Origin: an uncultured Bacteroides sp.
GTDB lineage: Bacteria > Bacteroidota > Bacteroidia > Bacteroidales > Bacteroidaceae
Assembly: GCA_947646015.1 (NCBI GenBank)
Contig: CANSEY010000008.1
Coordinates: 93,834 to 157,833 of the forward strand
Length of the DNA stretch: 64,000 nucleotides
Direction: 5' to 3'
Below are positions 28,674 to 63,378 of this stretch, piece after piece. Both the position numbers and the translations under genes were made by a program. The stretch's first letter is position 1, and each line of letters begins with the position of its first letter. The notes beneath the pieces were generated by a model. The model was not told where the DNA came from. It did no database searches and saw only the letters and a list, made by a program, of their open reading frames with translations.

Positions 28674-28704
28674 AAGAACGAATAAAAGAGCATTTACCAC
28701 TAAT
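28674..28704 (-). promoter_or_regulatory. ECF-type promoter motif, copy 1 (esterase-GH92-GH92-GH130-GH43-SGNH operon)
   Basis: Minus strand: ATTAGTGGTAA (28704-28694), 13 nt, CGTTCTT (28680-28674). It agrees with the four other copies in spacing and core bases. The predicted transcript start is near 28667, about 42 nt before the ATG at 28625. Confidence 0.7.
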
Positions 28705-28736
28705 CTCTTTATTTTTTTATATTTTCAAATAACAGC

Positions 28737-28781
28737 AAGAGGATTATTTCTCACTGTTTAAGTCAAGAAACAATCCTCTTT
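28737..28781. terminator. Hairpin ending the SusCD operon
   Basis: AAGAGGATTATTTCT pairs with AGAAACAATCCTCTT with one mismatch. It lies just after the stop of the 441-aa lipoprotein gene (minus strand) and before copy 1 of the ECF motif. The T run is on the plus strand, so minus-strand termination is likely but not textbook. Confidence 0.6.
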
Positions 28782-28798
28782 TTTAATACCCATTGAAT

Positions 28799-30124
28799 TT
28801 ATTCCTCAAAAAGCTTTTCCCAATTGTATACACGATAGAAATAAGGACGATAAAGATCCGCACTACCTACTGCATTAAAATTCCCTCCAAAGCCATCAGC
28901 AGGATCCGTATTAGTAGAAAATACTAATTCACCTTCCCGCGACAAATGAGGATGTAAATTCACCATATACAAATTACCATAAGTCTGTACCCCTAATTTA
29001 TCCAAAGTATTCGGAAATCCAAATAAAGTTTTACGATCTACAAAAGGGCCATAAGGCTTATCACTCCGGAAAATATACATTTCACGTCCAAACCATTTAG
29101 CTTGTGCTACCATATAATAGCTATCTCCTTTCTTAAAGACCCAAGGCATACTACAATCCTCTGCCTGAATTTTCGAAAGAGCAACTTGTTCCTGAGTTGG
29201 ATAAGTATTTTGCCAAGAATATTCTCCTTCTTCATTGCACACATAATATTCCCATGGACTATCTAAACTATGTGTAGCCGTACGTGCAACTATAACATCA
29301 TAATTATTATATGAACCATACAAATAAATATGTCCGTCTTCATCTTCATACATAGTAGAACCATATCCATAAATATCAGCATCATTAAAATGATGATTCG
29401 CACTTATGAGTTTCATATAGCTTTCATCACCCGGCTTTCCCTCTAAACTATAAGTAGCCAGACAAATGCCTTCATGTCTCATCAGATGTTCTTCATCTGT
29501 ATTATCCACTCCATTCCAAAGAACTTGCAATTGATTATTATACACTGTAGCATCGCCAGCCCAATATAACCAGTCTTGATCAATATCTCCGTCCTGAATC
29601 TGCTCATCTGTTTTAGATGCTTTCGGATGACGAATATGAGTACGTGCCTGATAATAGCGCGGGCCATCAGGATCAGTAGTCTGAATAAAATCAGCTAACC
29701 AAACAAGATTCTCTTCCTTATCTCCAGGTGTTTGTACCATTATAGTGTTACGTGGGAAATTTACTTTATTTCCATCACGCGACCGGGTTTCTCCATCTAC
29801 AACTCCATAAAAACTATCATTAAATGACCAAAAGGTATTTCCATCAGGCAACTGAGTCGTTAGCACTCCATCCCCTCCATTCCATCCTAAAGTACGAGTA
29901 AATAACTTATCGTATTTCTTATCTTTAAAAGCCACCACATAATCATTACACTCCAATAGTTCCAATTCCCATGCCGAATCTATAGAATTTAATACATTTT
30001 CCACTGCATCATCCTGTGGAGTGTTCTTGTATTCCAAAGGAAAGGCTTCGAATTTGTCGCAAGCTTCAAATGTTCCACACAACAAAGGAAGTATTAAGAA
30101 TTTTCCAACTTTATATTTATTCAT
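28799..30124 (-). CDS. Surface lipoprotein of unknown function, beta-propeller-like
   Basis: This 441-aa protein has a lipoprotein signal (LCGTFEAC/D). Repeating blade-like segments such as DGDIDQDWLYWAGDATVYNN, EDGHIYLYGSYNN, KKGDSYYMVAQAKWFG and GPFVDRKTLFG resemble a GH43/DUF4185- or DUF5005-type propeller. A clear set of catalytic carboxylates is not identifiable by eye. It is the last gene of the SusD-SusC-SusD-SusC operon, 22 nt after the second SusC. That position often holds a surface glycan-binding protein or the surface enzyme that makes the first cut. Either role is possible; function is not assigned. Confidence 0.55.
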   Translation of the reverse strand: MNKYKVGKFLILPLLCGTFEACDKFEAFPLEYKNTPQDDAVENVLNSIDSAWELELLECNDYVVAFKDKKYDKLFTRTLGWNGGDGVLTTQLPDGNTFWSFNDSFYGVVDGETRSRDGNKVNFPRNTIMVQTPGDKEENLVWLADFIQTTDPDGPRYYQARTHIRHPKASKTDEQIQDGDIDQDWLYWAGDATVYNNQLQVLWNGVDNTDEEHLMRHEGICLATYSLEGKPGDESYMKLISANHHFNDADIYGYGSTMYEDEDGHIYLYGSYNNYDVIVARTATHSLDSPWEYYVCNEEGEYSWQNTYPTQEQVALSKIQAEDCSMPWVFKKGDSYYMVAQAKWFGREMYIFRSDKPYGPFVDRKTLFGFPNTLDKLGVQTYGNLYMVNLHPHLSREGELVFSTNTDPADGFGGNFNAVGSADLYRPYFYRVYNWEKLFEE

Positions 30125-30146
30125 AACTATATCTTTTATCAGTTAA

Positions 30147-33100
30147 TTAGAATGTCAATTGCACACCTAAATTCACAACACGTTGATTCATGTATGCATC
30201 ACCTGCTGTATTTGTTTTAATTTCAGGGTCTTGCTGATATTTATCATAACCTGTAAATGTCAACAAATTGTAAGCATTCACATAGAAACGAATATTGTCT
30301 ATAGCTTTCGGCAATATCTTCTTTGGAAGTTGATATCCCAAATCGACTGTTTTCAAACGAATATACCAAGCATTAATCAGCCAGAAATCTGACATATAGG
30401 TACTGGCACTATTAATTGTAGAAGGATTGGTTGTCAAACGCGGGAAATCTATTTGTTCACCATTTTGGTAGCGTTCCAATGTCCAACGACTGGTATGGAT
30501 AGGTTGGAACTGACTCTTGAACGACTCAATACCTGTACCATTAATAGCAAAGCTATAATCGAATGAACCTTGGAACAATACATTGAAGCTAAATCCTCGC
30601 CAGTATCCACCAAACGACCATCCTAAAGTAGTAGAAGGCAAGTTCGGTTTACCAATAGCTCCTTTATCATAATCATCAATCGTTCCATCATTATTTAAAT
30701 CGGCATATTTCAAATCACCGGCTTGTACTGGGATATCTGTATAAGGAGTTGCCGGGGCATCTGAAGCACCAGATTGTATCTTTGCAACATCTTCCGGAGT
30801 ATAATACCCAATCCATTTATAACCAAACGGCTGGTTCAATGGTTTTCCGGTCTCTGCCAACCACGGATATCTCTGCTGAGCTTCAGCCTTATAATCGACT
30901 TTATTCTTTGCATAAGAGAAAACTAAATTTGTATTAAAATCAAAATCACCAAAACGATCCTGATAGCTAATCTGCCCGTCAAAACCTTGATTAGTTGTCT
31001 TAGCTATATTGTTCGGAGAAAAGCCGATACCAAGAACCAACGGAACATCATTTCTCGTCACCAATTGGTCATAACGTTTATCTAAAAAGTAGTCGATAGT
31101 AAACGAGAACTTATCTAAAAAGTTCATATCCAAACCGATATCAAACTTCTTTGCCTTTTCCCAAGTAGCATTAGGAGTTCCCAAATCCCCTTCTTTATAA
31201 CCATCTGTGAATTTTGGATAATCACCAAAGGAATAACCATCACCCTTCTGATATACCTGATCATACAAATAACGGTTACCTGCTGCCACATCCGAACCAA
31301 CCAGACCATAAGAGGCTCTCACTTTCAAAAGTTGCACTTTATCTGCCAGCCAATCTACGTTCTTAAAAAAGTCTTCTTCCGAAATGGCATAACCAACGCC
31401 CACTGCAGGGAAGAATCCAAAACGGTTATTCCTGCCGAAACGGTCGGTTCCGTTATAAGCCATATTGAGATCAATCAAATATTTGCTTTTATACTTATAC
31501 CCCATTGTCAAGGTATATCCCTCAAAGTTGCTGGGAACAGCCGCTGATACAAGCCCATCTCTATCTACTGTAGTAGTCTGAAGATTGTACAGAAACATAG
31601 CACTGATGTCGTGATCTCCTCCATTAAATACACGAGCATAGTTCACCGAAGCCTGGATATTCAAATCTTTGGTAGCCTTATCCGTACCACTGGTCACCGA
31701 AAACGTTCCATAATCATACACCTTATTCGGATTAATTACATATCCATTAGTTGACGAATCGTAATGATAGGTAGGATATTGAGATCGGTTTGCCTGACGA
31801 TGATTTTCATCTACACTTGAATACGCCAAACGATAATTGGCAGAAAGTCCCTCAGTCAGGAAATCCATTTTCCAAGTAGCACCATACAGAATATTATTAT
31901 CATTACGACGGGTACGCTTATAACCTTCATTTGCCAAACGAGCATTCAAGGTTGGTTTATACCCTTCTGTATCATTGAGATAAGCATAAGAACCATCAGG
32001 ATTCAATACCGGAGCTGAATAAGGATGCATTTTTGAGAAGTCGTAAATTTCACCTGTTGCATTCATATTACAAGGTTCATTGATATTCATAAAACGCGAT
32101 GATATATCCAAACGCATACTTAGGTTATCCGTCACAGCAAAGTCAATGTTAGTACGATAATTAAAACGACGGTAAAAATAGTTAGAATTCACTCCACTAT
32201 CCTTCGTTCCAAAGTCTTTCACCATACCATCTTGTGTAAAATAACCAGCAGAAACAAAATATTTCAATCTTTTAGAACCACCGGAAATATCCACATTCAC
32301 ATTCTCCTGAAAAGCGCTTTTCTTAAAAATCTCATCATACCAATTTACATCCGGATGTCCATAAGGATCTGTATGATCTCTGAAAGCCATCACATCTGCC
32401 TTTGAGAATGGTCTGGGCATACCATCATTTTCATAAGCTTCATTCACAAGAATGGCCGTATTATATGAGTCCAAAAATTTTGGAGTACGCACTGGAATCT
32501 GCATACCGCCTTCCAAACGTACATTGATTTGAGGCTTCCCTTGTTCTCCTCTTCGAGTCTTCACCACCAACACACCGTTAGCACCCTTAATACCATAGAT
32601 GGCTGTCGTAGAAGCATCCTTCAAGATAGATATACTTTCGATTTCGTTCACATTGATTTGCGACAACTGATCATACGTATACTGAACATCGTCCACTATA
32701 ATTAATGGCTTATTACCATCCGCATTCAATGAACTCACACCACGAATAAAGAAATCGGAAGCATCCTTACCCGGCTGTCCAGATTGTTGTTGGCTAAAAA
32801 ATCCCGGCAGTTTCCCAGTTAATGCATTCTGCAAGCTACTAGTCGGTACATTACGAATTTCACGTGCTTGTATACCACTTACGGCACCAGTCATCGTAAG
32901 ACGTTTAGCCTTACCATAAGCTACCACCACCACCTCATCAAGATTAGTTAAGTCCGGGGTTAGCTCTATATTCCAATCTCGTTGATTTCCGACTTTTATC
33001 GCAAGTTTCTTAAAGCCAATATAAGTGAATTCCAACACTTCACCCTTGTTTACCTTCAACTGATAATTACCGTCAAAATCCGTAATTGTACCAATTGTCG

Positions 33101-33236
33101 CATCCTTCACTTTTACATTTACTCCCGGAAGCAGTTCACCATCAGTGGAAGAAATCTTTCCTTTTACTGTTATCGATTGTCCAAAGGCAAACGCAAACAG
33201 GTTTATACTTAATAATATTAAAAGTATTCTTTTCAT
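30147..33236 (-). CDS. SusC-like TonB-dependent outer-membrane transporter (second)
   Basis: The 1029-aa protein has a signal peptide (LFAFAFG/Q), then a carboxypeptidase-regulatory-like domain (KGKISSTDGELLPGVNV, residues about 23-100), a TonB box-like DEVVVVAYGKAK near 103, a plug domain with GANGVLVVKTRRGE, and a long beta-barrel ending in the expected aromatic (QLTF). It imports oligosaccharides with a SusD lid. No STN (secretin/TonB N-terminal) domain precedes the regulatory-like domain, so it should not signal to an anti-sigma factor in the FecA manner. It starts 6 nt after the SusD at 33243-35015. Confidence 0.92.
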   Translation of the reverse strand: MKRILLILLSINLFAFAFGQSITVKGKISSTDGELLPGVNVKVKDATIGTITDFDGNYQLKVNKGEVLEFTYIGFKKLAIKVGNQRDWNIELTPDLTNLDEVVVVAYGKAKRLTMTGAVSGIQAREIRNVPTSSLQNALTGKLPGFFSQQQSGQPGKDASDFFIRGVSSLNADGNKPLIIVDDVQYTYDQLSQINVNEIESISILKDASTTAIYGIKGANGVLVVKTRRGEQGKPQINVRLEGGMQIPVRTPKFLDSYNTAILVNEAYENDGMPRPFSKADVMAFRDHTDPYGHPDVNWYDEIFKKSAFQENVNVDISGGSKRLKYFVSAGYFTQDGMVKDFGTKDSGVNSNYFYRRFNYRTNIDFAVTDNLSMRLDISSRFMNINEPCNMNATGEIYDFSKMHPYSAPVLNPDGSYAYLNDTEGYKPTLNARLANEGYKRTRRNDNNILYGATWKMDFLTEGLSANYRLAYSSVDENHRQANRSQYPTYHYDSSTNGYVINPNKVYDYGTFSVTSGTDKATKDLNIQASVNYARVFNGGDHDISAMFLYNLQTTTVDRDGLVSAAVPSNFEGYTLTMGYKYKSKYLIDLNMAYNGTDRFGRNNRFGFFPAVGVGYAISEEDFFKNVDWLADKVQLLKVRASYGLVGSDVAAGNRYLYDQVYQKGDGYSFGDYPKFTDGYKEGDLGTPNATWEKAKKFDIGLDMNFLDKFSFTIDYFLDKRYDQLVTRNDVPLVLGIGFSPNNIAKTTNQGFDGQISYQDRFGDFDFNTNLVFSYAKNKVDYKAEAQQRYPWLAETGKPLNQPFGYKWIGYYTPEDVAKIQSGASDAPATPYTDIPVQAGDLKYADLNNDGTIDDYDKGAIGKPNLPSTTLGWSFGGYWRGFSFNVLFQGSFDYSFAINGTGIESFKSQFQPIHTSRWTLERYQNGEQIDFPRLTTNPSTINSASTYMSDFWLINAWYIRLKTVDLGYQLPKKILPKAIDNIRFYVNAYNLLTFTGYDKYQQDPEIKTNTAGDAYMNQRVVNLGVQLTF

Positions 33237-33242
33237 AACATA

Positions 33243-35015
33243 TTACCAATTCGGGTTTTGAACCATATTTTTATTCTTTATCACTTCCGAGTACGGGATA
33301 GGATAGAAGTAACGCTTCACATCAAATGTAGCTGACAGTACATTTATTTTATGATAAGTCGTTACAGCACCGGCAATTTGAATATTCAAACCTTCCAGAG
33401 GTGCTTTGAAAATATCTTCAGCTATTCTCCAACGACGGATATCCCAATAGCGCTGTTCTTCAAAAGCCATCTCAATACGTCGCTCGTTTTGAATAATTTT
33501 ACGCATATCTGTTTTATTCATCGACTCTAATGCTCCCAAACCACAATTATCATCTTCTTCGATACCCGCACGTTTCCTCAATGCAATAATGGCATCAAAT
33601 ACTTCTTGTGAAGGTGCCGACTGATATTCATTCAATGCTTCAGCATAGTTCAGTAATACTTCTCCATAACGATACATCACCCACAGATGTAATGCTTCAC
33701 CATCATAATCACCTCGCGTTTTATAATCTTTCATAAACTTAGATATATAATAGCTAGTTCGGCTATATTCTGCCCCTGTAGGATTATTCTCTCCACCGAA
33801 GTTTGTTTGAAGTTCTGTATTCAACCAAAAAGAACCGTGATGCAATACTGTTAATTCCAAACGAGGATCACGATCTCTATATTGATCATTCGCATTATAT
33901 TTATATTTTGTACTATTACCCGGAGTTTTTCCATCTTTCATTAGAAATGATTCCACTAAATTTTGTGTCGGATTAGTGTTTCCATATCCCAAAGCATTTC
34001 CGGAAAATCCCAATGGACCATTAGCCGTTTCAAGACCTTTTCCTTTACCTATAGGACGAAAGAATATCAATTCCGGATTACCCGTTGAGCTATAGAATTC
34101 TGTAAATATATTACGATAATCAGCTGTCAAATCTAGCGTTTTTTTACCATTAGGCCCAAACTCATCAATTAGCTCCTTAGCCGCTTGAGCCGCCAAATTC
34201 CATCGTTCCGGATCATATGAAGCATATCCTATCAATTCATTCCCTGGTTCTATAGGTCTCTCATTAAATAAAGGACTAGCTGCATACAGCAACACCCTAG
34301 CTTTCATTGCCATACAAGCCTCCTTCGTAGGTGTATGTGCATAATCGCCGCCATCCGGCATCGGTAATGAACGAAGGTCATTCTTTATTTCATCCAGTTC
34401 ACGAACAATATAATCAATACACTGAGCAAATGTATTTCGAGGAAGTTCCATATCATCATTTAATTCGTATACCCGATCTCCCACCAAAGTAACACCGCCA
34501 TAGCGTTTCACTAATTCAAAGTAGAAATGAGCTCTCAAAAAACGAGCTTCCGCCTTCATTGTATAGTTCAAAGGTTTTACCTCTCCCAACGCATTTGTAT
34601 ATTTCAGATTGAAAGGAACTACATCAATATTGTTAATCAAGATATTTGCTTTACGAATTCCTTGATAATATTCACTCCATTCCATATCTGTCACACGAGT
34701 CAATGCCGAATAGCGTCCCATTAGCAATTTATAAACAGCCGGGTCATTATTGTTGACGGAGACAGCATCATCCGAAGCAGCATCCAAGAAATCACCGTCT
34801 ACCCGATTGTATCCACTATATAAATGTTCATAATAGATATTGTTCAGAAATCGTCTGGATTGTACACCAGCCGAATCAACTCTGGAAAACAAATAATCAA
34901 GTGTAAATTGCTCCACCGGTTCTTTCTCATATCCATCGTTACAAGCCGAAGCCATGAACAACAAGCCTGCACCTAAAAATGTTAAATATTTATTTCGTAC
35001 CATACAATAATTCAT
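33243..35015 (-). CDS. SusD/RagB-family glycan-binding lipoprotein (second)
   Basis: This 590-aa protein has a lipobox in LLFMASAC/N. SusD-family traits are the TPR-like helical core (EARFLRAHFYFELVKRYGGV), KARVLLYAASPLF, RYGEVLLNYAEALNEY, and the C-terminal NERRIEMAFEEQRYWDIRRW and YFYPIPYSEV. It caps the SusC barrel and binds glycan at the cell surface. Its start codon overlaps the stop of the first SusC by one base (TAATG), so it is translationally coupled to that SusC in the classical C-D order. The next gene is another SusC only 6 nt on, leaving the functional pairing open. Confidence 0.92.
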   Translation of the reverse strand: MNYCMVRNKYLTFLGAGLLFMASACNDGYEKEPVEQFTLDYLFSRVDSAGVQSRRFLNNIYYEHLYSGYNRVDGDFLDAASDDAVSVNNNDPAVYKLLMGRYSALTRVTDMEWSEYYQGIRKANILINNIDVVPFNLKYTNALGEVKPLNYTMKAEARFLRAHFYFELVKRYGGVTLVGDRVYELNDDMELPRNTFAQCIDYIVRELDEIKNDLRSLPMPDGGDYAHTPTKEACMAMKARVLLYAASPLFNERPIEPGNELIGYASYDPERWNLAAQAAKELIDEFGPNGKKTLDLTADYRNIFTEFYSSTGNPELIFFRPIGKGKGLETANGPLGFSGNALGYGNTNPTQNLVESFLMKDGKTPGNSTKYKYNANDQYRDRDPRLELTVLHHGSFWLNTELQTNFGGENNPTGAEYSRTSYYISKFMKDYKTRGDYDGEALHLWVMYRYGEVLLNYAEALNEYQSAPSQEVFDAIIALRKRAGIEEDDNCGLGALESMNKTDMRKIIQNERRIEMAFEEQRYWDIRRWRIAEDIFKAPLEGLNIQIAGAVTTYHKINVLSATFDVKRYFYPIPYSEVIKNKNMVQNPNW

Positions 35016-38000
35016 TAAAATCTGATATTAATACCTGTACTAATGCAACGTTGCAACGGATAGCTTGTGAAACTAACTTCCGGATCAACTAAATCGCACG
35101 CAGACTTCGTAAACAAGTTTTGTCCGTTAACAAACAGTTTTACACGCAAACCACCTAAGTAGTTACGACAGAATGAATCGGGCAGATTATATCCCAAGCT
35201 GATATTTTTTAAACGGATATAGTTTCCGGAACGTAACCAAAAAGAAGAATTCCAGCCATTACCACGGTTATAATTATTTCCACCGGCCGTCAGTCTTGGT
35301 AACGTGGCTGTTTCAGCAGTTTCCGGAGTCCAGCGTCCCAACATATTTTCATATGCCTGACCATAAAACTGACCATTCTGTTGGAAACCTTCGGTCAAAG
35401 TCACATCACCTAAATAATAATCACGGTTATAAGCTCCCTGCCAAAGCATAGAAAATTCCAATCCTTTCCACTCAAAGCCCAAATCAATTCCAAAGTAAGA
35501 GTACGGTTTATCACCGCCAATTACAGTACGGTCAAACTCATTAATCACTTTATCACCATTCAAATCTTTGTATTTGACATCACCCGGCTGAATATTTTTA
35601 AATCCTTCGATTACCGGACTATTTTCGATTTCTTCTTTGGAGGTAAAAAATCCATCGGCTACCAATCCGTACATTACTCCTACAGGACGACCTGTCTGGC
35701 GCAAATATTCTTCCGGAACATACTGTTCGTCCATATAAAGCAATTTACTTTGATCGCAACTCCAGTTAGCGGAAACATAATAATTGAAATTGTTCACACG
35801 ATCTTGATAAGTCACAGAGAGTTCTCCACCAAAACGACGCACCTTACCTATATTTTCTGCTGGATAGTATTGTCCGATTAACTGGATACTCTTACCTCTG
35901 CTTTGCAACAAATCAAAATATTTATCATTATAATAATCTGCAGCCAGTTTCAAACGATTGTCAAACAATGATAAATCAACACCTACATTCAACTTATACG
36001 CTTTCTCCCATGTCAAGTACGGATTTGCCAATGGAGTATTTTCCATTGTAAGATTTCCCGCACCCAAGTTCGTTCCCATTGGGTAACCTGCTGCTACATT
36101 GCTTGAGAAGGTTTGTTGATATCCATAATAACCAGAGTTATCCATACCATTACCCGTCTTACCAAATGTTCCGCGTATCTTTAACTGATTTAACCAATCA
36201 GCATCTTCCATAAAATTCTCTTTACTTATATCCCATCCAAGACCGAACGCATAGAAGGTTCCCCAGCGGTTGCCCGGAGCATAGCGGTTGAAATAGCTTT
36301 CACTCAAAGCAGCCTGTACAAAATATTTCTCTGCATAATCATAAGCTATATCACCTATAATATTGGAAGGTAACTGTGGCAAATCATAGTTAACCAATGT
36401 TTGACGAGTATCGCCCATTAAAGTGGCTTTTACTCCATGCTTTCCAAAACGCCGGTTATAGTCAATGGCAATCTGACCATACATCTGCTGGTAACTAGTC
36501 ACAGAATTAAAGAAATTAGATTGCGTATTTGTGACTCCATGCAAAGTATAAATTTCTTTCCCTTCTTTATCAAATCCATAAGCATATACCGGAGCACGTT
36601 TACTTCTTTGAACATACGAACGGTTCTGAATAGAAACATTACCCACCATACGAACCGACAGACCTTCTACAAATTTGCCAAAATCGTATTTCAAGTTAAC
36701 ACCTCCTACCATATCTCGTGCGCTATCCTTAATATAACCTGAGTTTATTGATTGTGCCACCAAGTTATTATCGAATGTTTTATTACCACCCCATGTTCCA
36801 TTGGGATTTTTAATAGGATAGGCATTATTAGGAGTATTATAAATAGAATTTAACAAGCTTCCATAAGATACACCAGGCTGATTACCATCTTCCACGCGAC
36901 CAAGCAAAGTAACTTTTGCTGTAAAGTCGTCAGTAATGTTAATGTTTATTTTTGAAGAAATCATATAACGTGAATATGATAAATTAGTATCATGCGCATC
37001 GCCATCTGTAGGATTTGCAAACAATCCTTTTTCACCTTGATAACCTATACTAACAAAATATTGCGTAACTTTATTACCTCCTGTCACATTTAGGTTATAT
37101 GCCTGTGTAGTAGCATTTTTATTCAAAATTTCATCAAACCAATTTATATCAGGATGTGTATATGGGCTAGAATGCATACGAAACTTATTAAAGTCATCAT
37201 ATGAATAAAGCGGATCCTTTCCGTCATTTTGCAATGCTTCATTCAACAGATATGCATATTGATAAGACGATAAAGGTTTAGGAGTTTTCAATGCACTCTG
37301 TACTCCAAAACGCCCCGTAAAGGACAATTGGAAACCTTCTTTTATAGGTTCTTTAGTCGTAATCAGTAAAGCACCACGCGAACTACGCATACCCAAAAAC
37401 ATTGATGACAATGCATCCTTTTGGATAGATACCGACTCGATTGCTTCCGGGTCGAGTGAATATAATTCTCTTTGGATACCATCAACAACCACTATCGGAG
37501 CATTACCACGCGAACCGACGCTGAATTCAGTGTTGTCACTATAAAATCCTTCACCAAACAAAGGGATGCTACCAGCCAGATCATTTCTTGAATTAGCAGC
37601 AATCTGATGTGCACGAGCTCCCGCAAATTGACTAACATTCAAACCTGCCATACGACCTTGTAAGGCTGGCAGAATCGTTGTCCCCATCATAGATGACAAT
37701 TCATCCGTATACACAGTAGCAGCAGATCCTAAAAAGTTTTTTTTATTTTTAGACTCGTAAGGACCACTAACAGTTTCCTTATTTTTAATAAATTGTTCAT
37801 TTAATGTTACCTTGAATACACGCTCAGTATTCTTCAACTTATTAACCTTGACTTCTTTGTGAATGAACTCCGGATGCGACAAACGCAATACATCTCCTTT
37901 TTTCATTTGAAATGAAAAAACTCCATCAGTCCCTGTTACAACCTTAAAATCACTATTTTTCATGGTGATCGTTACATCCGAAACCGGATTACCATATTGG

Positions 38001-38140
38001 TCAACCACCTTACCAGTAATGTTAGCATTACTTACTTTCTGTGCAAATACTTTCGGAGATATCATTATTCCCCAAAGCATACCCATAGTAAGCAATACAA
38101 AATAAAACCGTCCACTTTTTTTAGTTACTATATTATACAT
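35015..38140 (-). CDS. SusC-like TonB-dependent transporter (first), atypical TonB box
   Basis: The frame opens at 38182, but the ATG at 38140 gives a cleaner signal peptide (LLTMGMLWGIMISPKVFA/Q), so I chose it (1041 aa). A carboxypeptidase-regulatory-like domain follows (ITGKVVDQYGNPVSDVTI), then the plug and barrel. The usual EVVVVGYG TonB box is not evident; that position reads KETVSGPYESKNKKNF. The plug has a long insert with GEGFYSDNTEFSVGSRG before VVVDGIQREL. No STN domain is present. Barrel features and a C-terminal aromatic (NIRF) are intact. It lies downstream of the DUF4961-like gene and overlaps the next SusD gene by one base. Confidence 0.9.
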   Translation of the reverse strand: MYNIVTKKSGRFYFVLLTMGMLWGIMISPKVFAQKVSNANITGKVVDQYGNPVSDVTITMKNSDFKVVTGTDGVFSFQMKKGDVLRLSHPEFIHKEVKVNKLKNTERVFKVTLNEQFIKNKETVSGPYESKNKKNFLGSAATVYTDELSSMMGTTILPALQGRMAGLNVSQFAGARAHQIAANSRNDLAGSIPLFGEGFYSDNTEFSVGSRGNAPIVVVDGIQRELYSLDPEAIESVSIQKDALSSMFLGMRSSRGALLITTKEPIKEGFQLSFTGRFGVQSALKTPKPLSSYQYAYLLNEALQNDGKDPLYSYDDFNKFRMHSSPYTHPDINWFDEILNKNATTQAYNLNVTGGNKVTQYFVSIGYQGEKGLFANPTDGDAHDTNLSYSRYMISSKININITDDFTAKVTLLGRVEDGNQPGVSYGSLLNSIYNTPNNAYPIKNPNGTWGGNKTFDNNLVAQSINSGYIKDSARDMVGGVNLKYDFGKFVEGLSVRMVGNVSIQNRSYVQRSKRAPVYAYGFDKEGKEIYTLHGVTNTQSNFFNSVTSYQQMYGQIAIDYNRRFGKHGVKATLMGDTRQTLVNYDLPQLPSNIIGDIAYDYAEKYFVQAALSESYFNRYAPGNRWGTFYAFGLGWDISKENFMEDADWLNQLKIRGTFGKTGNGMDNSGYYGYQQTFSSNVAAGYPMGTNLGAGNLTMENTPLANPYLTWEKAYKLNVGVDLSLFDNRLKLAADYYNDKYFDLLQSRGKSIQLIGQYYPAENIGKVRRFGGELSVTYQDRVNNFNYYVSANWSCDQSKLLYMDEQYVPEEYLRQTGRPVGVMYGLVADGFFTSKEEIENSPVIEGFKNIQPGDVKYKDLNGDKVINEFDRTVIGGDKPYSYFGIDLGFEWKGLEFSMLWQGAYNRDYYLGDVTLTEGFQQNGQFYGQAYENMLGRWTPETAETATLPRLTAGGNNYNRGNGWNSSFWLRSGNYIRLKNISLGYNLPDSFCRNYLGGLRVKLFVNGQNLFTKSACDLVDPEVSFTSYPLQRCISTGINIRF

Positions 38141-39247: not shown

Positions 39248-39264
39248 AAAATTACTTTAATACG

Positions 39265-55029: not shown

Positions 55030-55037
55030 CTCTACTT

Positions 55038-58000
55038 TTATATATCCAGTTTATTCTGCTCTACTTTTCCGTACTGTTTCACCAATACACTCACGCCACC
55101 TTTCAGCAGTTCGGGTGCTGCCTCCATACTGATCACCTTTTCTTCGCCCGGCATCAACGTTACATAATTATCGGACATGATAACAGGAAGCACGCGTTCT
55201 TGTGTAGTCTTATTGACAAGTCTCATCCGATTGGCAAAAGCCACCATACCGGAATTGTTCTTCACAGCTATTTTCATCTTTCCGTCAGCCATCGATTTAT
55301 CGACCAACCGGCAAGACAAATCAGCTTCCGGAAGTGTATTCAGCAAGGTATAATCAAGGTCTCTCACGCCATTCCGCCAATAGAAGTTTTCGGAGAGCAG
55401 ATCACCCTTAGCATCTGTCAGTTCCAGTTTAATGAAATGAAGCGGAGTCAGTTCTTCTATTCCCTTCGGCTTCTCACCGTAGACTTCGAACTCAAACAAT
55501 GAATATCCGAATGATGTGGCACGACTGATACCTGCCAGTTTTACATAACGGGCAGCAACCGGTTCCAGCTCAATCTGTTCCGTACCGCCTTTTCCTTCCT
55601 TATTGGTATAAACGGTTTTCCACTCCTTCGCATCATTCGAAACTTGCAGCTCATATCTCTTAGCACAAGCCGCTTCCCATTTCAAAATTACTTTTTCTAT
55701 TTTCTCCTCTTTGCCAAGATCAATGTATATCCATTGAGGATCGCTGTATGCACTTTCCCAACGGCTTCCGGCACCTCCGTCAGCCACCATCGAAGCACTT
55801 TTAGAAGCACTTGTTGAGGAAGATGCAATGACATTCTTTCCGTAAGCCAGATTGAAGGGGTTAAAGTTCAACGTAAATGCTTCAGCTATATCGCTGGCTG
55901 CCACGTCTACCTGTTTTGTCTGGCCGTATACAGTAACTTCCTTTCCATTCAGGTCGTAGATGGTAGCTTTGGCTGTTGCCCCTTTCAGGTCCTTCGCCGT
56001 AGTGTTGACTGCTTTTATGCTGTTATTGGAAGCATTCCATTGGATATGCAGAGGTTCACAAGCCTTTTTCGCCCCCCAGTAAGCACCTGTAGGATCGTAA
56101 TAATAATCGTAAGTCTGCCATACAAACGAAGGATAGGCAGGATGGCTCATCCAGATGAGAAGTCCAGCGGCGTCATTCCACATCTTGTCGTTCCAAGCCT
56201 CATACATTCCTTTCATTACTTCGATATTCAGCAACTGTGCCTTCTCGCAGAACTCTTCCAGTCCGAATGATTCTCCATACTGGGTGTTCACTGAATTCTT
56301 GTAGTTTATAGGATTGGCGTTGGATGCTTCCTTACCGAAGAAATGCTTGTTCCATACGTTATCGTCATCATTCTTCAACTGCTCGTCAGTAGGCAGAGGC
56401 CACCAGTCTTTCTGCGGGATAAACTCTTTCACACTTTCGAATGTAGGGAAAGTAGCCGTACCTATCTCTGTACGCATACCGTAACCGTGATCAATACCAT
56501 ACGGATAAGCCGGTGTATTAAATGCCAGATTGCTGCCTGATGTTTCAAAATGATGTCTTGGAGGCTGATTTCCCCACCAGCCACTTCCGGACAATCCGTC
56601 CTGATTGGAGCATGACTTGTACATACGGTCATTGTTATCCTCTTTGGCAATCATTTCACGCAGGTAATTATCCAAATCGGGTGTCGGATGCGTTTCATTG
56701 GCTCCACACCAGATAGCGATGGAAGGATGGTTTCTGAGACGTCTGACTTTATCAAGGGCATTCGCCTTGAACGCTTCCGGTTGGGCTACATCATTATATG
56801 CCACATACAGCCAGAAGTCATTCCATACCATTATTCCGTATTTATCACAATAGTCATAAAACTCATCATCGGTCACACAACCTGTCCACAGACGAATCAT
56901 ATTGTAATTCATCTCCTTATGCAGACGGATCTTCGTTTCATATTCTTCACCCTGGCAACGAAGCAGATACTCACTCATTCCCCAGTTTCCACCTTTCAGG
57001 TAAATCTTCTGCCCATTGATAAAGAATGTCAGTACAGGATATCCCACTACGTTATCTACCATCTTATACTCATACTTCTTGATACCGAATGTCATTTCCT
57101 TTACATCCGACACCTGTCCGTCAACCGAACAAGTCAGTTGGCAGGTATAGAGATTAGGTTCACCATAACCATTCGGCCACCAAAGTCTCGGGTTATCAAT
57201 GACCAGCTGTTTTATTTCTTCTTTATCTATAAATAATTTGGCTGTCGTTCCTCCCTCTACCCGTATATCTTTAGAAAAGGAAATGTTTCCCGGCTGAATA
57301 ACTCCAGCAACAACCACTTCCTTCGGAGAAGAAGAAGCATTTCTGATATCTGTCGAAATGGATATCTCAGCTTGCTGTAAAGTCGGCAACTCGGAACGTA
57401 CCCACGGGTCTTCCATAATTACATCTCCGGTAACAGCAAGGTAGGCATTACCTGTGATACCCGCCAAACGTCCTGGTATATAAGGCATCCAGTCCCAACC
57501 GGCACCTGCCAGATAACTGGGGCTGCAAGCAACTCCATACGGGTCTTTAGCTTTACGCGTCTTTTTCTGGTCGGGATCGGTGATCAAGACGGCTATCGCA
57601 TTCTTGCCGGACTTCTTAACCAAATCAGTCACATCAAATTTTGAACGCAACATATGACCGCTTACATCTTTCACAGATGTTTTCGTTCCTGATATCTTCT
57701 CTCCGTTAAAATAGAAATCAGCAAAGCGGTTGGTATTGTCAAAATGGAGCCATACACGCTTTCCTTCCGAATAAGATACCGGAAGCTCAAATTCTGTACG
57801 ATACCAGAACGGACGGTTATAAAACGTCTCGTCTACTTTATAAATATTATCAGCGTAATTAGGATCGGGAACAATTCCTGCTTCAACATAAGCAGTAAAA
57901 ACAGTTCCCGGTACTACACCCTTGACAAAACCGGACATTTCAAATCCCGGAGTAGATATCTGTTCTCCGGTCATATTCTCCAAATCCGCCTGGGGTTTCA

Positions 58001-58121
58001 CTTCCCAAAGAATCTGCGGGTTCGAACTGTTCAACGACATCTTTGTACTCTGCTCCGCACATCCCGTCTGGATAAGAGCAAATACTGCCGATACTATAAA
58101 AAGACCAAGTTTATTCATCAT
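55038..58121 (-). CDS. GH2-family lipoprotein with inserted F5/8C (CBM32-like) domain
   Basis: The 1027-aa protein has a lipobox LIQTGC/A. The GH2 parts are a jelly-roll (VWLHFDNTNRFADFYFNGEK), an Ig-like domain, a barrel with WCGANETHP (probable acid/base Glu near 475) and GYGMRTEIGTAT (probable nucleophile Glu near 551), and C-terminal beta domains. The sequence resembles the exo-beta-glucosaminidase/beta-mannosidase side of the family. An F5/8 type C domain (about 757-880, AYGKNVIASSSTSASKSA to FEVYGE) interrupts the C-terminal Ig-like domain between LNFNPF and LTPLHFIKLELTD. Substrate is not certain; beta-mannose or beta-glucosamine are the leading options. Confidence 0.85.
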   Translation of the reverse strand: MMNKLGLFIVSAVFALIQTGCAEQSTKMSLNSSNPQILWEVKPQADLENMTGEQISTPGFEMSGFVKGVVPGTVFTAYVEAGIVPDPNYADNIYKVDETFYNRPFWYRTEFELPVSYSEGKRVWLHFDNTNRFADFYFNGEKISGTKTSVKDVSGHMLRSKFDVTDLVKKSGKNAIAVLITDPDQKKTRKAKDPYGVACSPSYLAGAGWDWMPYIPGRLAGITGNAYLAVTGDVIMEDPWVRSELPTLQQAEISISTDIRNASSSPKEVVVAGVIQPGNISFSKDIRVEGGTTAKLFIDKEEIKQLVIDNPRLWWPNGYGEPNLYTCQLTCSVDGQVSDVKEMTFGIKKYEYKMVDNVVGYPVLTFFINGQKIYLKGGNWGMSEYLLRCQGEEYETKIRLHKEMNYNMIRLWTGCVTDDEFYDYCDKYGIMVWNDFWLYVAYNDVAQPEAFKANALDKVRRLRNHPSIAIWCGANETHPTPDLDNYLREMIAKEDNNDRMYKSCSNQDGLSGSGWWGNQPPRHHFETSGSNLAFNTPAYPYGIDHGYGMRTEIGTATFPTFESVKEFIPQKDWWPLPTDEQLKNDDDNVWNKHFFGKEASNANPINYKNSVNTQYGESFGLEEFCEKAQLLNIEVMKGMYEAWNDKMWNDAAGLLIWMSHPAYPSFVWQTYDYYYDPTGAYWGAKKACEPLHIQWNASNNSIKAVNTTAKDLKGATAKATIYDLNGKEVTVYGQTKQVDVAASDIAEAFTLNFNPFNLAYGKNVIASSSTSASKSASMVADGGAGSRWESAYSDPQWIYIDLGKEEKIEKVILKWEAACAKRYELQVSNDAKEWKTVYTNKEGKGGTEQIELEPVAARYVKLAGISRATSFGYSLFEFEVYGEKPKGIEELTPLHFIKLELTDAKGDLLSENFYWRNGVRDLDYTLLNTLPEADLSCRLVDKSMADGKMKIAVKNNSGMVAFANRMRLVNKTTQERVLPVIMSDNYVTLMPGEEKVISMEAAPELLKGGVSVLVKQYGKVEQNKLDI

Positions 58122-58169
58122 GCTATCAAGATTTTAAAGTAACAATTAGTTTTGGGGATCTTTATTTAA

Positions 58170-60509
58170 TCAGATCCCCCATTCAGTGTTAGGCTTATCA
58201 CCCATAAACAGCTCCAATGTTCCTCCGGCTGCAATATCTGCAAAGTCCAGATAACACTTATTGTATTCCTTGCCGTTCAGCAAAGCCTTCTGTATATATA
58301 GATTATTTGCGTTGTTATCGTGTGCAATCACTGTAAATATTTCTCCTGAATAATACTTCGGATCCAGTCGGAACTCTACCTTATCAAAAACAGGACTTGT
58401 TATTTCCATCCGCGTGTTCCCCGGACAAGAAGGATGAATGCCGGAAGCAGCCAGAATATACCACGCCGACATCTGTCCAACATCCTCATTTCCTACAATC
58501 CCTTCTACTTTGTTGGCATATGCCTTTTCACAAATATGACGTGTCCACTTCTGCGTATCCCATGGCGCACCCAACTGGTTGAAGAGGAAAGGAACAAAAT
58601 GTACCGGTTCGTTGGCGTGATTATAATATTCATTCCACAACAAGTTGGAAGGAGTCTTATCAAACAGATTAGTCAGATCCGCTATCACTTTTTCTTTGCC
58701 TCCCATCAGTTCGACCATGCCCGTCACATCGTGCGGCACGAACCATCCCTGCTGGTAAGCATTGGACTCAATGCAACCATACCATTCCTTTGTCAGTGCA
58801 TTCTCCGGCCAAGGTTCCCAGGAACCATCCGCATTTCGTGGGCGGAACCATCCTTTCTCCTTGTCAAATATATTGCGATAAGCCTGTCCTTTTTCATAAA
58901 AACGTCGGGCTTCATCTTCTTTTCCCAGTGCTTTAGCCAATTGAGAAACACACCAGTCTGCATAAGCATATTCCAAAGTGTATGAAATGCTTAATGGTTC
59001 AGGAGTATAACCTAACAAATCATTGCCGAATTTGCGTGATGTATTGACTGCGTATTGATAAGCTTTCTCAGCATCGTAAGTGCGGATTCCCTTTATATAG
59101 GCATCAGCCAATACGGATAATGCAGGATTACCCAGCATACATCCTGAATAAGAATTCAGCAGTTCCCAACGTTCGTAATATTCGCGTCCGCTTTGCTCAG
59201 CCATAGTAATCAACGAGTTCAGTTCGTCACTTACCAGACGCGGATTGATAATCGTCTGCAAAGGGAACTGACTACGAAATACATCCCAACCGCTGAATAT
59301 AGTACGTTTGGTAAATGTACTGTCACCTGCATGTGTCTCTTTATCTCCGCCTACATAGCGGCCGTCTACATCCGAATAGATTCGTGGATCGATCATTGTG
59401 TGGTACAAAGCGGTATAGAACACCGTTTTCTCTTCATCCGTACCTCCGGATATCTGTACACGGCTAAGTTCTTTGTTCCATAAATCATTCGCCTCCTGTC
59501 TCACCTGATCAAAGTTTTTAGAAGCTATTTCCTTTTTAAAGTTATTGGCAGCACCCTCCATATCTACAAAAGAGATGCCTACTTTCATTTCTACTTCTTC
59601 TCCTTCCGTAGTCGGGAATTCGGTGAAGAAACCCAGATGTTTGCCTTCCAGTTCTTTCTTACCTGTTATCACCGGAGTCTGTGAAACACGTGTCAGATAA
59701 GGAATACTAACGACTTCATCACGCTTCCGGACCCAATTATCAGGGATATCCGCACTCCAGAATCCATAATTACTCAACGGCTTGCTGAATTGCGCATAAT
59801 AATAAACGGTATAATCGGCACTGCCTTCTCCATTACCCCATCCGCCACCGTCAGGAGTACACTTCATCCAGCCTTGAATCGTATTTTCATTTACCACCTT
59901 CACATATTGAACTGTAGAAGTACCGCCCACTCTGCGTGCCAGGTCGATCTGAATACGCGACTGTTCATTCGAAGGGAAAGTAAACCGCAATATTCCACAA
60001 TGGGGTGTAGCACTAGTCTCTGCTTTGATCTTATAATCAGTCAGCTCTACAGAGTAATATCCCGCTTTCGCAGTCTCGGTAGCTTTATCATAGGCAGAAC
60101 GGTATCCTTTGATACTGTCATTATTCTCTTTACCCGCTACTTTCAGCAATTCACCGGTGGTAGGCATGACGAGGAAGTTTCCTAATTCACCAAACCACCC
60201 CACACCACTCATCTGAGTAAAAGCAAATCCTTCAATTGTCTTATGTTCATCACTATAACCGGAGCCGTTATCACCTCCTGTTATTGTATTCGGACTCACT
60301 TGCACCATACCATAAGGAGTGGTCGCTCCCGGAAAAGTCTTACCCAATCCATGATAAACACCTGCAGCCCCCACACTGGTGCTGGCGCCGATAAACGGAT
60401 TTACATAATCAGTCGGAACCAGATCTGCTGTAGCTGTATCCGTCGATGAACAAGCGGTCATCCATAAAAAAGAGCAAGCAATTAAAAGATTAGCAGTAGC
60501 TTTATACAT
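58170..60509 (-). CDS. Family 92 alpha-mannosidase lipoprotein (third copy)
   Basis: The 779-aa protein has a lipobox LWMTAC/S, so unlike the other two GH92 proteins it is lipid-anchored and may face the outside. Family motifs are VNPFIGASTSVGAAGVYHGL, FPGATTPYGMVQVSP, GCIESNAYQQGWFVPHD with the likely general acid, HANEPVHFVPFLF, and GIVGNEDVGQMSAWYILAA with the base aspartates. All appear intact. It lies in the operon that begins with the small anti-sigma gene, between the GH38-like gene (41 nt) and the GH2 gene (48 nt). Exo-alpha-mannosidase activity is expected; linkage is open. Confidence 0.92.
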   Translation of the reverse strand: MYKATANLLIACSFLWMTACSSTDTATADLVPTDYVNPFIGASTSVGAAGVYHGLGKTFPGATTPYGMVQVSPNTITGGDNGSGYSDEHKTIEGFAFTQMSGVGWFGELGNFLVMPTTGELLKVAGKENNDSIKGYRSAYDKATETAKAGYYSVELTDYKIKAETSATPHCGILRFTFPSNEQSRIQIDLARRVGGTSTVQYVKVVNENTIQGWMKCTPDGGGWGNGEGSADYTVYYYAQFSKPLSNYGFWSADIPDNWVRKRDEVVSIPYLTRVSQTPVITGKKELEGKHLGFFTEFPTTEGEEVEMKVGISFVDMEGAANNFKKEIASKNFDQVRQEANDLWNKELSRVQISGGTDEEKTVFYTALYHTMIDPRIYSDVDGRYVGGDKETHAGDSTFTKRTIFSGWDVFRSQFPLQTIINPRLVSDELNSLITMAEQSGREYYERWELLNSYSGCMLGNPALSVLADAYIKGIRTYDAEKAYQYAVNTSRKFGNDLLGYTPEPLSISYTLEYAYADWCVSQLAKALGKEDEARRFYEKGQAYRNIFDKEKGWFRPRNADGSWEPWPENALTKEWYGCIESNAYQQGWFVPHDVTGMVELMGGKEKVIADLTNLFDKTPSNLLWNEYYNHANEPVHFVPFLFNQLGAPWDTQKWTRHICEKAYANKVEGIVGNEDVGQMSAWYILAASGIHPSCPGNTRMEITSPVFDKVEFRLDPKYYSGEIFTVIAHDNNANNLYIQKALLNGKEYNKCYLDFADIAAGGTLELFMGDKPNTEWGI

Positions 60510-60550
60510 AAAAATATTTCAGTTTACTATTAATAGAATATATTTATAAA

Positions 60551-63091
60551 TCAATTCAGTACGAAAGTCTTTATACCGAAACGGGGCATTGAAACAATCA
60601 TTTCAGTTTTCCCGGCACGTGTTTTTATCTTCTTTTGTTCCAGGCAGTTTCCATTCAGATCTACTTCCTCTATCCGGGATAAAGGCATGTTTAAAGTAAT
60701 TTTTCGCTGTGCATTGTCTCCTTCCGCATTGAACAGACGCAGCATGATCTTCCCGTCCTGCAGTCCAGCTGCACTAATCTGATAACCGGTATTGCGCAAA
60801 TCAACAAATGATTTTGATTCCAGTTCTGCCGACGAATGATAAGAACCTAACAATGGTTCATTCCAACAGTCACTGCTAGTAGCAATGCAAGCTTTATCCC
60901 ACTTCCCACGATGAGGGATAATAGCATATTTCATTTTCAACGGACCTGTAATCTTATAATCAGGTCCCCAAAGTCCCGGACCGGAATATTGTGCCGTCAA
61001 ACCTAACGGGTAATCTTCTCCGTGAGAATAAGAAGTAGTATGGTCTGACAATAATGCCAGCGCATAATCTCCTTTTTGTTCCGCCAAATCCACCCAGTTA
61101 AGAATAATATTATGCTTAATCTGATCCCAGGTATTAAAGAAAGTATTATCCAGTTTACTTTCGCAAACATCAAACGGCGCATTTTTATAAATACGAGACG
61201 AACCAAGATCTACCGGAAACAAGACACTCAGTTTAAACCGGTCGTCACAATATGCTCTGCGATTGTCCCGCCAGTGCGTTTCGCGATATTCACCGATTCC
61301 CACATTCTTTCTCCAATTGATGGTAAGGTCAAAGTCAATACGCTTATCCCCGCGGGCAAGAGTCACAATCTGCGTAAAAGGATGTGTAGCGATTTCGCCT
61401 TCTATCTTTACCTTTGTCTCATAGCAATTATTTCTCAGAACAGTCATCTTTGCAGGTGTCTCCGTAGAAGAACGGAATTTTTCTTCTTCATAAAAGTATC
61501 CCCGCAGTTCACCTAAAGCATACTCACCGGATTGTTTGGCAAAGTCTTTGTTTCCCTCTTTCTTTGCAACCAAGCTTTTAATAATTCCTCCCTTCGACAA
61601 GTCAAAAACAATCTTATACAATTCATTTTCGACTATATATTCCCGTTCGTTCACTGCACACTGACCTCCTGAAACCGTTCTTTTACCTAACCTTTTTTGT
61701 TTGATACGATACGTGGAGTAGCCGAGGGGGGGAACTTCTGCTTCAAAAAACAATCTTGTTTTTTTACCTTCTCTTTCTATAGAGTAACCTATCTTCTTTC
61801 CTTTCCAGTTACAAACTTCCAATTCGTCATCTGCATACTCATCTGGAAGCAGGATATTCATCATCTCTGTTCGTTGAATTCCCAGAGTATTATAAACACG
61901 TATATATCCCTGCTGACCGTCCACAGGCGTATTTCCCTGATCAAAGCTCCGTACGGATGCTTCCGTTATCTTATCAGCAATGGTATTGGTCTGATCCGTC
62001 CACCGCTTGATTGCATCTGCCCATGTACCATACCTATGTAAACCATTATACGGTACAATCCATGAATCATGATGTTGTGCCAGCATCAATGTGCGCCAGG
62101 CTTCATCCACATCCGCCTGAGCATAGCTATAGCCATTCTCCAAATGAGCTATGACGGACATTTTCTCTGCCATCACTATCTTATTCTCGGAAGTACGTAC
62201 CTCCTGTGCAATCCTTTGCATCACTTGGCTGCCCCACATCAGATTGACACGCATATCTTCTTGCGAGAAACGATAATCATCATCTGTTTTACCAATGGAA
62301 ATATTCTCTATGTAATCTTTCCATCTTACATATTTGGAATTATTTTTGATTTTCTTTCCACTACCCAGCCACGGTCCGTTTTTCCATCCGGCATCCTGAA
62401 AACACATACCTACCGGATGCTCGATTCCTGCATCACGGCAAGCGTTTAAATATTCCTCTGAATTTCCCCAGGCAGTCGTCTGCCAAGTAGATCCCCGTTC
62501 CAGTTTCTCGCAAGCATAACGGGGTACGGTTAGTATGGAAGTTCCATCGGTTCCTATCCAGTTGACCAGTTCTCCACCATAAGCACTGGTATAGCCTCCC
62601 CAGCACGTATTCGGGCATTTGAGAACAGCATACTTAAATCCTAACGACTTGAGTATCTGCGGCAAGCAGCTTGTAAAACAAGGTTCTTCCACTGAATAAG
62701 TCAGAAAACTTACTTCCGGAAAATGTTTATTTATCTTGGATATACCATATTGAAACTGACGAATAATACTTTCACCTGAAATATTGTAGCAGTATGGCTG
62801 CGCATAGGTCGGATTCGTAAATTCTACTTGCTCGCCGGCTGCGAGATTTTTAAATTGACGATAAGCTTCGGGGGTTTGTACCTGAACCGTATCCCACGTC
62901 TCAGGTTCTATCTCCATGCAGATTCGCCAGTCGGGATGCATGGTCAGCTGGTCTACGATAAACTGGGTTTTCCACTTCACCGGATAGTGCCCGTATATCC
63001 CTCCATGATATCCGTCAACGAAAGATGGCTGCTGCGAATGAACATACGAACAAATAAAAACAGCTAATAACAGGATACTAATTTTATTCAT
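60551..63091 (-). CDS. Divergent GH38-like alpha-mannosidase
   Basis: The 846-aa exported protein has a signal peptide (ICSYVHS/Q). The later part fits GH38: AQHHDSW near residue 338 (the metal-binding His-His-Asp region) and a large C-terminal beta region (YIVENELYKIVFDLSKGG). The N-terminal active site is unusual. The usual HxDxxW is replaced by DGYHGGIYGHYP. The usual nucleophile motif D-x-F-G-H reads TYSVEEPCFTS, with Glu where Asp is expected. It may be a separate clade with a different catalytic set, or a different sugar specificity. It starts 12 nt after the 74-aa anti-sigma gene, in the same operon. The GH38 relation is moderately sure; activity is not. Confidence 0.65.
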   Translation of the reverse strand: MNKISILLLAVFICSYVHSQQPSFVDGYHGGIYGHYPVKWKTQFIVDQLTMHPDWRICMEIEPETWDTVQVQTPEAYRQFKNLAAGEQVEFTNPTYAQPYCYNISGESIIRQFQYGISKINKHFPEVSFLTYSVEEPCFTSCLPQILKSLGFKYAVLKCPNTCWGGYTSAYGGELVNWIGTDGTSILTVPRYACEKLERGSTWQTTAWGNSEEYLNACRDAGIEHPVGMCFQDAGWKNGPWLGSGKKIKNNSKYVRWKDYIENISIGKTDDDYRFSQEDMRVNLMWGSQVMQRIAQEVRTSENKIVMAEKMSVIAHLENGYSYAQADVDEAWRTLMLAQHHDSWIVPYNGLHRYGTWADAIKRWTDQTNTIADKITEASVRSFDQGNTPVDGQQGYIRVYNTLGIQRTEMMNILLPDEYADDELEVCNWKGKKIGYSIEREGKKTRLFFEAEVPPLGYSTYRIKQKRLGKRTVSGGQCAVNEREYIVENELYKIVFDLSKGGIIKSLVAKKEGNKDFAKQSGEYALGELRGYFYEEEKFRSSTETPAKMTVLRNNCYETKVKIEGEIATHPFTQIVTLARGDKRIDFDLTINWRKNVGIGEYRETHWRDNRRAYCDDRFKLSVLFPVDLGSSRIYKNAPFDVCESKLDNTFFNTWDQIKHNIILNWVDLAEQKGDYALALLSDHTTSYSHGEDYPLGLTAQYSGPGLWGPDYKITGPLKMKYAIIPHRGKWDKACIATSSDCWNEPLLGSYHSSAELESKSFVDLRNTGYQISAAGLQDGKIMLRLFNAEGDNAQRKITLNMPLSRIEEVDLNGNCLEQKKIKTRAGKTEMIVSMPRFGIKTFVLN

Positions 63092-63103
63092 GGTATCTAA
63101 TGC

Positions 63104-63328
63104 CTATTTATTTTTGCGTTTTTCTATCCGATTCATAAATTCAGATAACTTACGCTGAGCAAGTTCCTTATCCTCTTTCGGAGCCAACCAGTCTATTAGT
63201 GCTACCAGATGCTGATATTCTAAAAAGTCCTCTTGTAGTCCCCCGTCATGGATTACTTCCAACAGAAATTCATTTTTTTCTCCGGAAGTCAATTCACCTG
63301 CAAAATACTTATTTATATTATTTTTCAT
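63104..63328 (-). CDS. 74-aa FecR-type anti-sigma N-terminal domain without membrane part
   Basis: The protein opens INKYFAGELTSGEKNEFLLE and is entirely hydrophilic and helical. It looks like the cytoplasmic sigma-binding domain of Bacteroides FecR-like anti-sigma factors (about 70 residues ending in a basic cluster, here RIEKRKNK) where the membrane helix would normally start. Instead a stop codon follows, and the GH38-like gene begins 12 nt later, so the membrane and periplasmic FecR parts are absent. It has a good AAAAAGGA ribosome site before the ATG. It lies between an ECF-type promoter motif and the operon, 75 nt after the ECF sigma gene. It may still bind the sigma factor as a soluble inhibitor. 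The homology is judged by eye. Confidence 0.55.
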   Translation of the reverse strand: MKNNINKYFAGELTSGEKNEFLLEVIHDGGLQEDFLEYQHLVALIDWLAPKEDKELAQRKLSEFMNRIEKRKNK

Positions 63329-63347
63329 TTATACGTCCTTTTTACAA

Positions 63348-63378
63348 AAGAACGATTAACTCAACAAATACCCCTAAA
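63348..63378 (-). promoter_or_regulatory. ECF-type promoter motif, copy 5 (anti-sigma/GH38-GH78 operon)
   Basis: Minus strand: TTTAGGGGTAT (63378-63368), 13 nt, CGTTCTT (63354-63348). One base differs from the consensus in the -35-like part. The predicted start near 63341 leaves about 13 nt before the ATG at 63328. It lies in the gap between the sigma and anti-sigma genes. Confidence 0.7.

Follow-up and report, generated by a model that had tools for sequence, protein, structure and literature searches.

A candidate ECF sigma regulon with a conserved promoter motif in a Bacteroides glycan locus

Described systems and the layout of the locus

Bacteroides species have dozens of ECF sigma factors, many of them encoded in glycan loci. 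For B. thetaiotaomicron, an excerpt of a 2020 transcriptome paper states that not one ECF factor had a known recognition motif (PMC7366714), and a 2013 regulon paper, likewise in excerpt, calls the prediction of ECF regulons a challenge for which start-site data are needed (PMC3878776). The locus described here lies in a window, by which we mean the whole stretch of 64,000 nucleotides that was analysed, from an uncultured Bacteroides sp. (assembly GCA_947646015.1, contig CANSEY010000008.1). Its closest described relatives are the Bacteroides ECF sigma/FecR/SusC(STN) systems, with which it shares a sigma factor of subfamily TIGR02985, the promoter geometry between the sigma and the anti-sigma gene, and a related anti-sigma domain. 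It differs from them in that its anti-sigma protein is without the membrane and periplasmic part, its SusC proteins are without an STN domain, and several operons, together with an unlinked one, appear to have a common promoter. Since two defining features of such systems were looked for and were absent, this is not an ordinary sigma/FecR/SusC system.

In the FecI/FecR systems of E. coli and Pseudomonas, an N-terminal piece of FecR binds the sigma factor, according to an excerpt of PMC9249621; the piece is a proteolysis product there and has its own gene here. The likeness to SusR of the starch system lies in an NCBIfam SusR_regulator gene before the sigma gene in relatives and in a candidate pair of boxes whose distance of 77 bp fits the SusR-like spacing, with the difference that the pair here precedes the sigma gene and not sus-type operons. 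In B. thetaiotaomicron, the ECF sigma factor SigW-1 (BT1817) also controls genes of a glycan locus, PUL59, and does so without forming the usual adjacent pair; as the excerpt of that work has it, its gene lies far away and its motif (TGTT close to -10) did not reach significance (PMC12596196), whereas here the sigma gene is adjacent and the motif is both specific and conserved. The ECF regulon of a glycan locus is a known kind of system, and what is new is that its promoter is defined, that the anti-sigma domain stands free, and that a SusR relay is proposed. In the open-licence literature we found no account of the motif blocks, of the enzyme set or of DUF6377 in Bacteroides, and nothing on the sigma gene under the B. 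thetaiotaomicron tags around BT4069-BT4092.

An earlier note on this DNA had placed an ECF sigma gene at the head of the locus, and its product is confirmed as an ECF sigma factor of subfamily TIGR02985. The first gene behind site 1 is a 74-codon gene (63328-63103) that was missing from the earlier reader's list, and the contig ends where the window ends, 72 nt before the sigma gene. The features are as follows.

63976..63985, minus strand: housekeeping-type -7 box before the sigma gene, TATATTTGCA
63404..63928, minus strand: ECF sigma gene, 174 aa, TIGR02985, 184.4 bits against a cut-off of 126.4
63348..63378, minus strand: predicted promoter site 1, TTTAGGGGTAT-N13-CGTTCTT; heads the unit of the 74-codon gene and GH38; start codon 19 nt away
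63103..63328, minus strand: gene of the 74-aa soluble protein, which matches the cytosolic anti-sigma domain of FecR
48173..63091, minus strand: rest of unit 1, with GH38, GH92, GH2, GDSL, GH78 and GH78
47600..47630, minus strand: predicted promoter site 2, TTTAGTGGTAT-N13-CGTTCAT; heads GH106; start codon 152 nt away
44295..47447, minus strand: unit 2, GH106
44175..44205, minus strand: predicted promoter site 3, TTTAGTGGTAT-N13-CGTTCTT; heads GH31; start codon 209 nt away
41819..43965, minus strand: unit 3, GH31, frame interrupted
41711..41741, minus strand: predicted promoter site 4, TTTAGTGGTAT-N13-CGTTCTT; heads the SusD/SusC operon; annotated start 108 nt away
28799..41602, minus strand: unit 4, with SusD, DUF5004, DUF4961, SusC, SusD, SusC and DUF5005
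28674..28704, minus strand: predicted promoter site 5, ATTAGTGGTAA-N13-CGTTCTT; heads the esterase/GH92 operon; start codon 48 nt away
17961..28625, minus strand: unit 5, with SASA esterase, GH92, GH92, GH130, GH43 and GDSL

The GH31 gene at 41819-43965 consists of two ORFs of 514 and 195 aa, and in the relatives G021 and G128 it is a single ORF of 714-716 aa; the split frame reflects either decay or an assembly error in the draft genome. Just upstream of site 2, at 47664-48153 of the window, lies an element some 490 nt long. Its inverted ends, 43 nt each, are 81% complementary, and its interior is an array of 22-nt units in which GAAACTNTAGTTTC occurs; the source genome has partial copies of the element on five or more further contigs.

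The motif in the window, in the source genome and across the genus

The five motif copies lie on the minus strand at the coordinates given earlier, each with a spacer of 13 nt, so in these respects the earlier note was correct. The literal string that it offered, TTTAGTGGTAT-N13-CGTTCTT, is exact in two of the five copies, and the other three differ from it by one or two letters within the blocks: the second block of the copy at 47600 reads CGTTCAT, the first block of the copy at 63348 reads TTTAGGGGTAT, and that of the copy at 28674 reads ATTAGTGGTAA, with two mismatches to the literal string. That the motif occurs nowhere else in the window also stands, as no further match appears with up to three mismatches, and shuffled windows hold 0.05 matches on average, with none of 100 reaching the five observed. 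The blocks had been called conserved and the spacers divergent, and the mean pairwise identity among the five copies bears this out, being 0.89 and 0.94 in the two blocks vs. 0.37 in the spacer; the 60-nt flanks on either side reach 0.28 and 0.36. There are five copies of block 1, [AT]TTAG[GT]GGTA[AT], in the window and 27 of block 2; the whole motif, with spacers of 8-24 nt scanned, is present five times and at spacer 13 only.

The statement that a site stands in every larger gap is true for the run of 24 minus-strand genes from 63928 to 17961, where five of the 23 gaps measure 75-725 nt and have one site apiece and the remaining 18, of 56 nt or less, are without a site. On both strands of the five motif gaps (1518 nt), the housekeeping box TAnnTTTG has no match, and a strict housekeeping promoter of this form was thus rejected for the five units. 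The copies have the form of an ECF-type promoter, that is, two conserved blocks at a fixed spacing, distinct from the housekeeping promoter. A known RNA element was also considered and discarded, the single Rfam match in the window at the gathering threshold lying at 3759-3948, outside the locus. That match, far from the locus, belongs to the Bacteroides sRNA family BTnc231 (RF04180, 140.6 bits).

The genome-wide search that the earlier note had proposed as a check returned, in the source genome (4.9 Mb, 74.7% complete, 100 contigs), five sites that depart from the degenerate pattern at no more than one position, every one of them in this locus; with up to three mismatches there are 29 matches vs. 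44 for the reversed pattern, which is noise. The comparison was extended to 149 genomes of the genus, nine of which have a sigma gene at least 72% identical to ours. All nine hold the motif (at most one mismatch), with 22 matches, 21 of them at the locus, and the other 140 genomes hold four matches, all within ORFs of 257-741 aa; G095, which is among the 140 and whose sigma factor is 56% identical, has zero. The reversed pattern gives about 32 stray matches in the 149 genomes. With the refined exact pattern TTTAGKGGT-N15-CGTYNT, 30 matches were found in 10 of the 13 sigma-bearing genomes (none in G082, G152 and G095, which also bear the sigma gene), 28 of them at the locus, some beyond the stretches that were read (G149, G104 and G154), and two within one shared coding gene, and the other 145 genomes have eight matches in seven genomes. 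Shuffles, the scan of the source genome and the counts across genomes together rule out a chance origin of the motif.

Site 1 lies directly behind the sigma gene and is kept in all nine genomes with a close sigma ortholog, and sites 4 and 5 could be aligned with the orthologous gaps of relatives; in three alignments of orthologous gaps, the blocks stand out and the surroundings drift. The locus of the relatives, read whole or in part, varies in gene order and gene content, and the site stays at the operon heads, where it precedes SusD, GH31, GH106, esterase, GH92, DUF5005 and GDSL genes. A site matrix built solely from the five window sites was positive in 38 of 73 operon-head gaps, with 0.81 expected for the 73 from shuffles, at a threshold of 11 bits that was chosen after a first look which had used 12; the operon heads were called mechanically, and the G001_C71 piece was excluded from the 73 and handled separately. 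Leaving out the window's own five, 33 of 68 operon heads carry the site. In the control gaps before sigma and SusR-like genes, one of 20 passes the threshold; this gap, in G053, is 1,039 nt long. The site is absent from 35 of the 73 mechanical heads, several of which are explained by mechanically called gaps within operons, by inserted genes or by sub-threshold sites, and from all five operon heads of G095.

In B. faecis, the sole near-exact match outside the locus heads a sugar operon (L154, 3323-8734) that encodes an SMP-30-like lactonase, DUF6905, an FGGY sugar kinase, a zinc dehydrogenase and a DeoC-type aldolase. The lactonase gene is present in seven of the 12 sigma-bearing genomes searched, and not in the window's genome; the site stands before it at the same position in five of the seven, with one or two mismatches and with flanks that can hardly be aligned, and is absent in two. 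All four site-bearing regions that were read contain the operon, and in G021, which is without the site, the lactonase gene alone was found in 16 kb. As this target is far from the locus, a regulator acting in trans fits. The predicted regulon extends beyond the locus, and this operon may serve the use of a sugar released by it.

Similar sites, with other letters, occur in the gaps between paralogous sigma and FecR genes, e.g., TTTAGCGGATT-N13-CGTCTAT. The pattern TTTRGNGG-N16-YGTY, whose letters were picked after viewing these paralog gaps, is found in 13 of 53 distinct stretches behind paralogous sigma genes, where 0.012 are expected, and at any other spacing of 8-24 the same two words are found twice in the 53 stretches; the 13 matches include orthologs across species and form six or seven independent groups. 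All 13 belong to the 21 closest sigma genes, eight of which lack the geometry, and the 32 more distant sigma genes are all without it. The geometry would appear to characterise the promoters of one subgroup of these sigma factors, with letters that differ from member to member, and the promoters of other sigma factors of the subfamily can be sought in the gaps between sigma and anti-sigma genes.

The 74-residue protein and the gene upstream of the sigma gene

With E values from 1.8e-6 to 2.2e-14, the 74-aa protein aligns to roughly the first 70 residues of anti-sigma factors of the FecR type; the matched proteins are 318-374 aa long and encoded behind paralogous sigma genes. The 74-aa protein stops before the membrane segment. 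It has no match in Pfam or NCBIfam, where a control FecR matches FecR and FecR_C, and a PDB sequence search with its alignment returned nothing relevant. AlphaFold2 predicts four helices (pLDDT 80.5, pTM 0.55), and the 10 best Foldseek matches are chains of sigma/anti-sigma complexes (RslA, RsiW and MucA), none of them significant alone (best E 0.79); judged by length, the matched chains are the anti-sigma chains. Next to the sigma gene of the locus there is no membrane-spanning FecR, the 74-aa protein being the only such product found, and neither SusC has an STN domain at E up to 10; a control SusC beside a full FecR gives STN over model positions 1-51/52 with E 0.0071, itself below Pfam's cut-off. 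Because the 74-aa protein is without a membrane part and the SusC proteins are without STN, the route by which such systems normally signal across the envelope seems to be lacking.

The motif does not govern the sigma gene itself, as far as its position tells. An excerpt of PMC7366714 gives TAnnTTTG as the Bacteroides housekeeping -7 box, of which there is one in the gap before the sigma gene, and TATATTTGCA stands in this gap in 13 of 13 sigma-bearing genomes. A SusR-family gene lies upstream of the sigma gene, on the same strand, in all 12 of the other sigma-bearing genomes (its frame is split in G152), and the B. faecis copy matches NF058541 (NCBIfam SusR_regulator) with 525.7 bits vs. a cut-off of 480. 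The source genome has a SusR-like copy, 88% identical to that of B. faecis, on contig C95. This contig extends 167 nt past the stop of the copy, and its final 48 nt are identical to the opening 48 nt of the window contig.

The predicted SusR-like sites of PMC3878776 (in excerpt) are boxes in tandem, at a distance of 67 or 77 bp. Upstream of TATATTTGCA, a pair of TYTAC words 77 bp apart occurs in 11 of the 13 genomes and is absent in two, the word having been picked after viewing the alignment; in shuffled sequences a pair at 67 or 77 bp turns up at 0.001 to 0.012, and no such pair occurs in the five motif gaps. In gene order, a possible B. thetaiotaomicron counterpart is the SusR-like BT4069, followed by an ECF gene and then by GH38. 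The excerpt of the 2013 paper reports BT4069 as having no conserved neighbours (PMC3878776), and this speaks either against the counterpart as proposed or against that paper's neighbour criterion.

A model of the circuit and its alternatives

On comparative grounds, the five sites are very probably the -35/-10 promoters (TTTAGKGGTW, then CGTY) of this TIGR02985 sigma factor. The interpretation of the earlier note as one ECF-sigma regulon is supported by the specificity of the motif, its co-occurrence with the sigma gene, its conservation at operon heads, the unlinked target and the geometry at the paralogs; the same comparative tests favour the neighbouring sigma factor as the reader, the contact of sigma and promoter being something that we infer. 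In the model that we propose, and that taken as a whole we consider likely, a SusR-family membrane sensor would induce the sigma gene through the TYTAC pair 77 bp apart, the sigma gene being transcribed from the housekeeping-type promoter TATATTTGCA; the sigma factor would open the promoters of the five units together and, in some relatives, would also switch the unlinked sugar-catabolic operon; and the 74-aa anti-sigma domain, made first by sigma, would bind sigma and limit it by feedback. A SusR-family sensor above the sigma factor is, on its own, rather likely. We give even chances to the further idea of a sensor-swapped ECF regulon, in which the trans-envelope input would have been lost, the cytosolic piece of FecR would have become a separate gene, and a SusR-type sensor would have been gained. 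If the circuit is true, a sigma factor of outer-membrane signalling has been rewired to another sensor, and sugar sensing is relayed and amplified through it to five operons, plus the unlinked catabolic operon in relatives. Sequence comparison alone defines a promoter here, points to its likely sigma factor and its targets, and shows a geometry common to close paralogs.

The two blocks might instead be the operator of a DNA-binding activator or repressor, SusR-like or other, with the units using other promoters. A SusR-family gene adjoins the sigma gene in relatives, and since the two lie side by side, co-occurrence alone cannot separate the two regulators. We nevertheless regard an operator as improbable: the five gaps contain no TAnnTTTG on either strand, this geometry recurs in other letters between paralogous sigma and FecR genes, in loci that were picked by sigma alone, the TYTAC pair that fits SusR precedes the sigma gene and is absent from the five gaps, the spacer never changes in length, and CGT forms the core of the second block. 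A CGT core is usual in ECF -10 elements. Another ECF sigma factor of the cell as the reader of the sites is a still fainter prospect, for the sites track this ortholog (nine of nine genomes vs. stray coding matches in the 140), many of the 140 genomes hold other TIGR02985 sigma genes, and one site lies directly behind this very sigma gene in nine of nine genomes; what speaks for it is that the source genome has 34 matches to TIGR02985 and that the close paralogs use similar letters.

A repeated or mobile sequence without regulatory meaning could also account for five copies of a motif, and a repeat element does lie just upstream of site 2. Nevertheless, the copies have no likeness in their spacers and flanks (identity 0.28-0.37), and the blocks are kept across species while their surroundings drift, so a copied or mobile repeat was rejected as the origin of the motif, its probability being very slight indeed. 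Lastly, the model may hold with the 74-aa protein as a pro-sigma cofactor, a ready-made equivalent of the FecR proteolysis fragment that sigma activity would require or be boosted by. An excerpt of PMC9249621 reports that FecR1-85 activates FecI without a signal, and the 74-aa protein matches that stretch of FecR-type proteins. Against this role, the same paper reports that the sigma factors of FpvR are inhibited by a 67-residue fragment of it, and the 74-aa gene is broken in G082 (L038) and G152 (L123), and yet both genomes retain the sigma gene and the site before GH38. A broken gene behind a retained promoter weakly favours a dispensable brake over an obligatory activator; we lean towards an inhibitor, and consider the cofactor possible but somewhat doubtful.

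Two further genomes are of note around GH38. In G073 (L104, 7805-10829), a related sigma gene is followed directly by GH38, with no 74-aa gene and no such site between them, and the pair adjoins GH92, GH130 and GH2 genes. In G095 (L105/L106), the order SusR-like gene, sigma gene, gene of a 74-aa-type protein and GH38 is kept, and in the site behind the sigma gene, block 1 has diverged and CGTTCTT is kept, which could make this genome a natural test case for joint changes in sigma and block 1.
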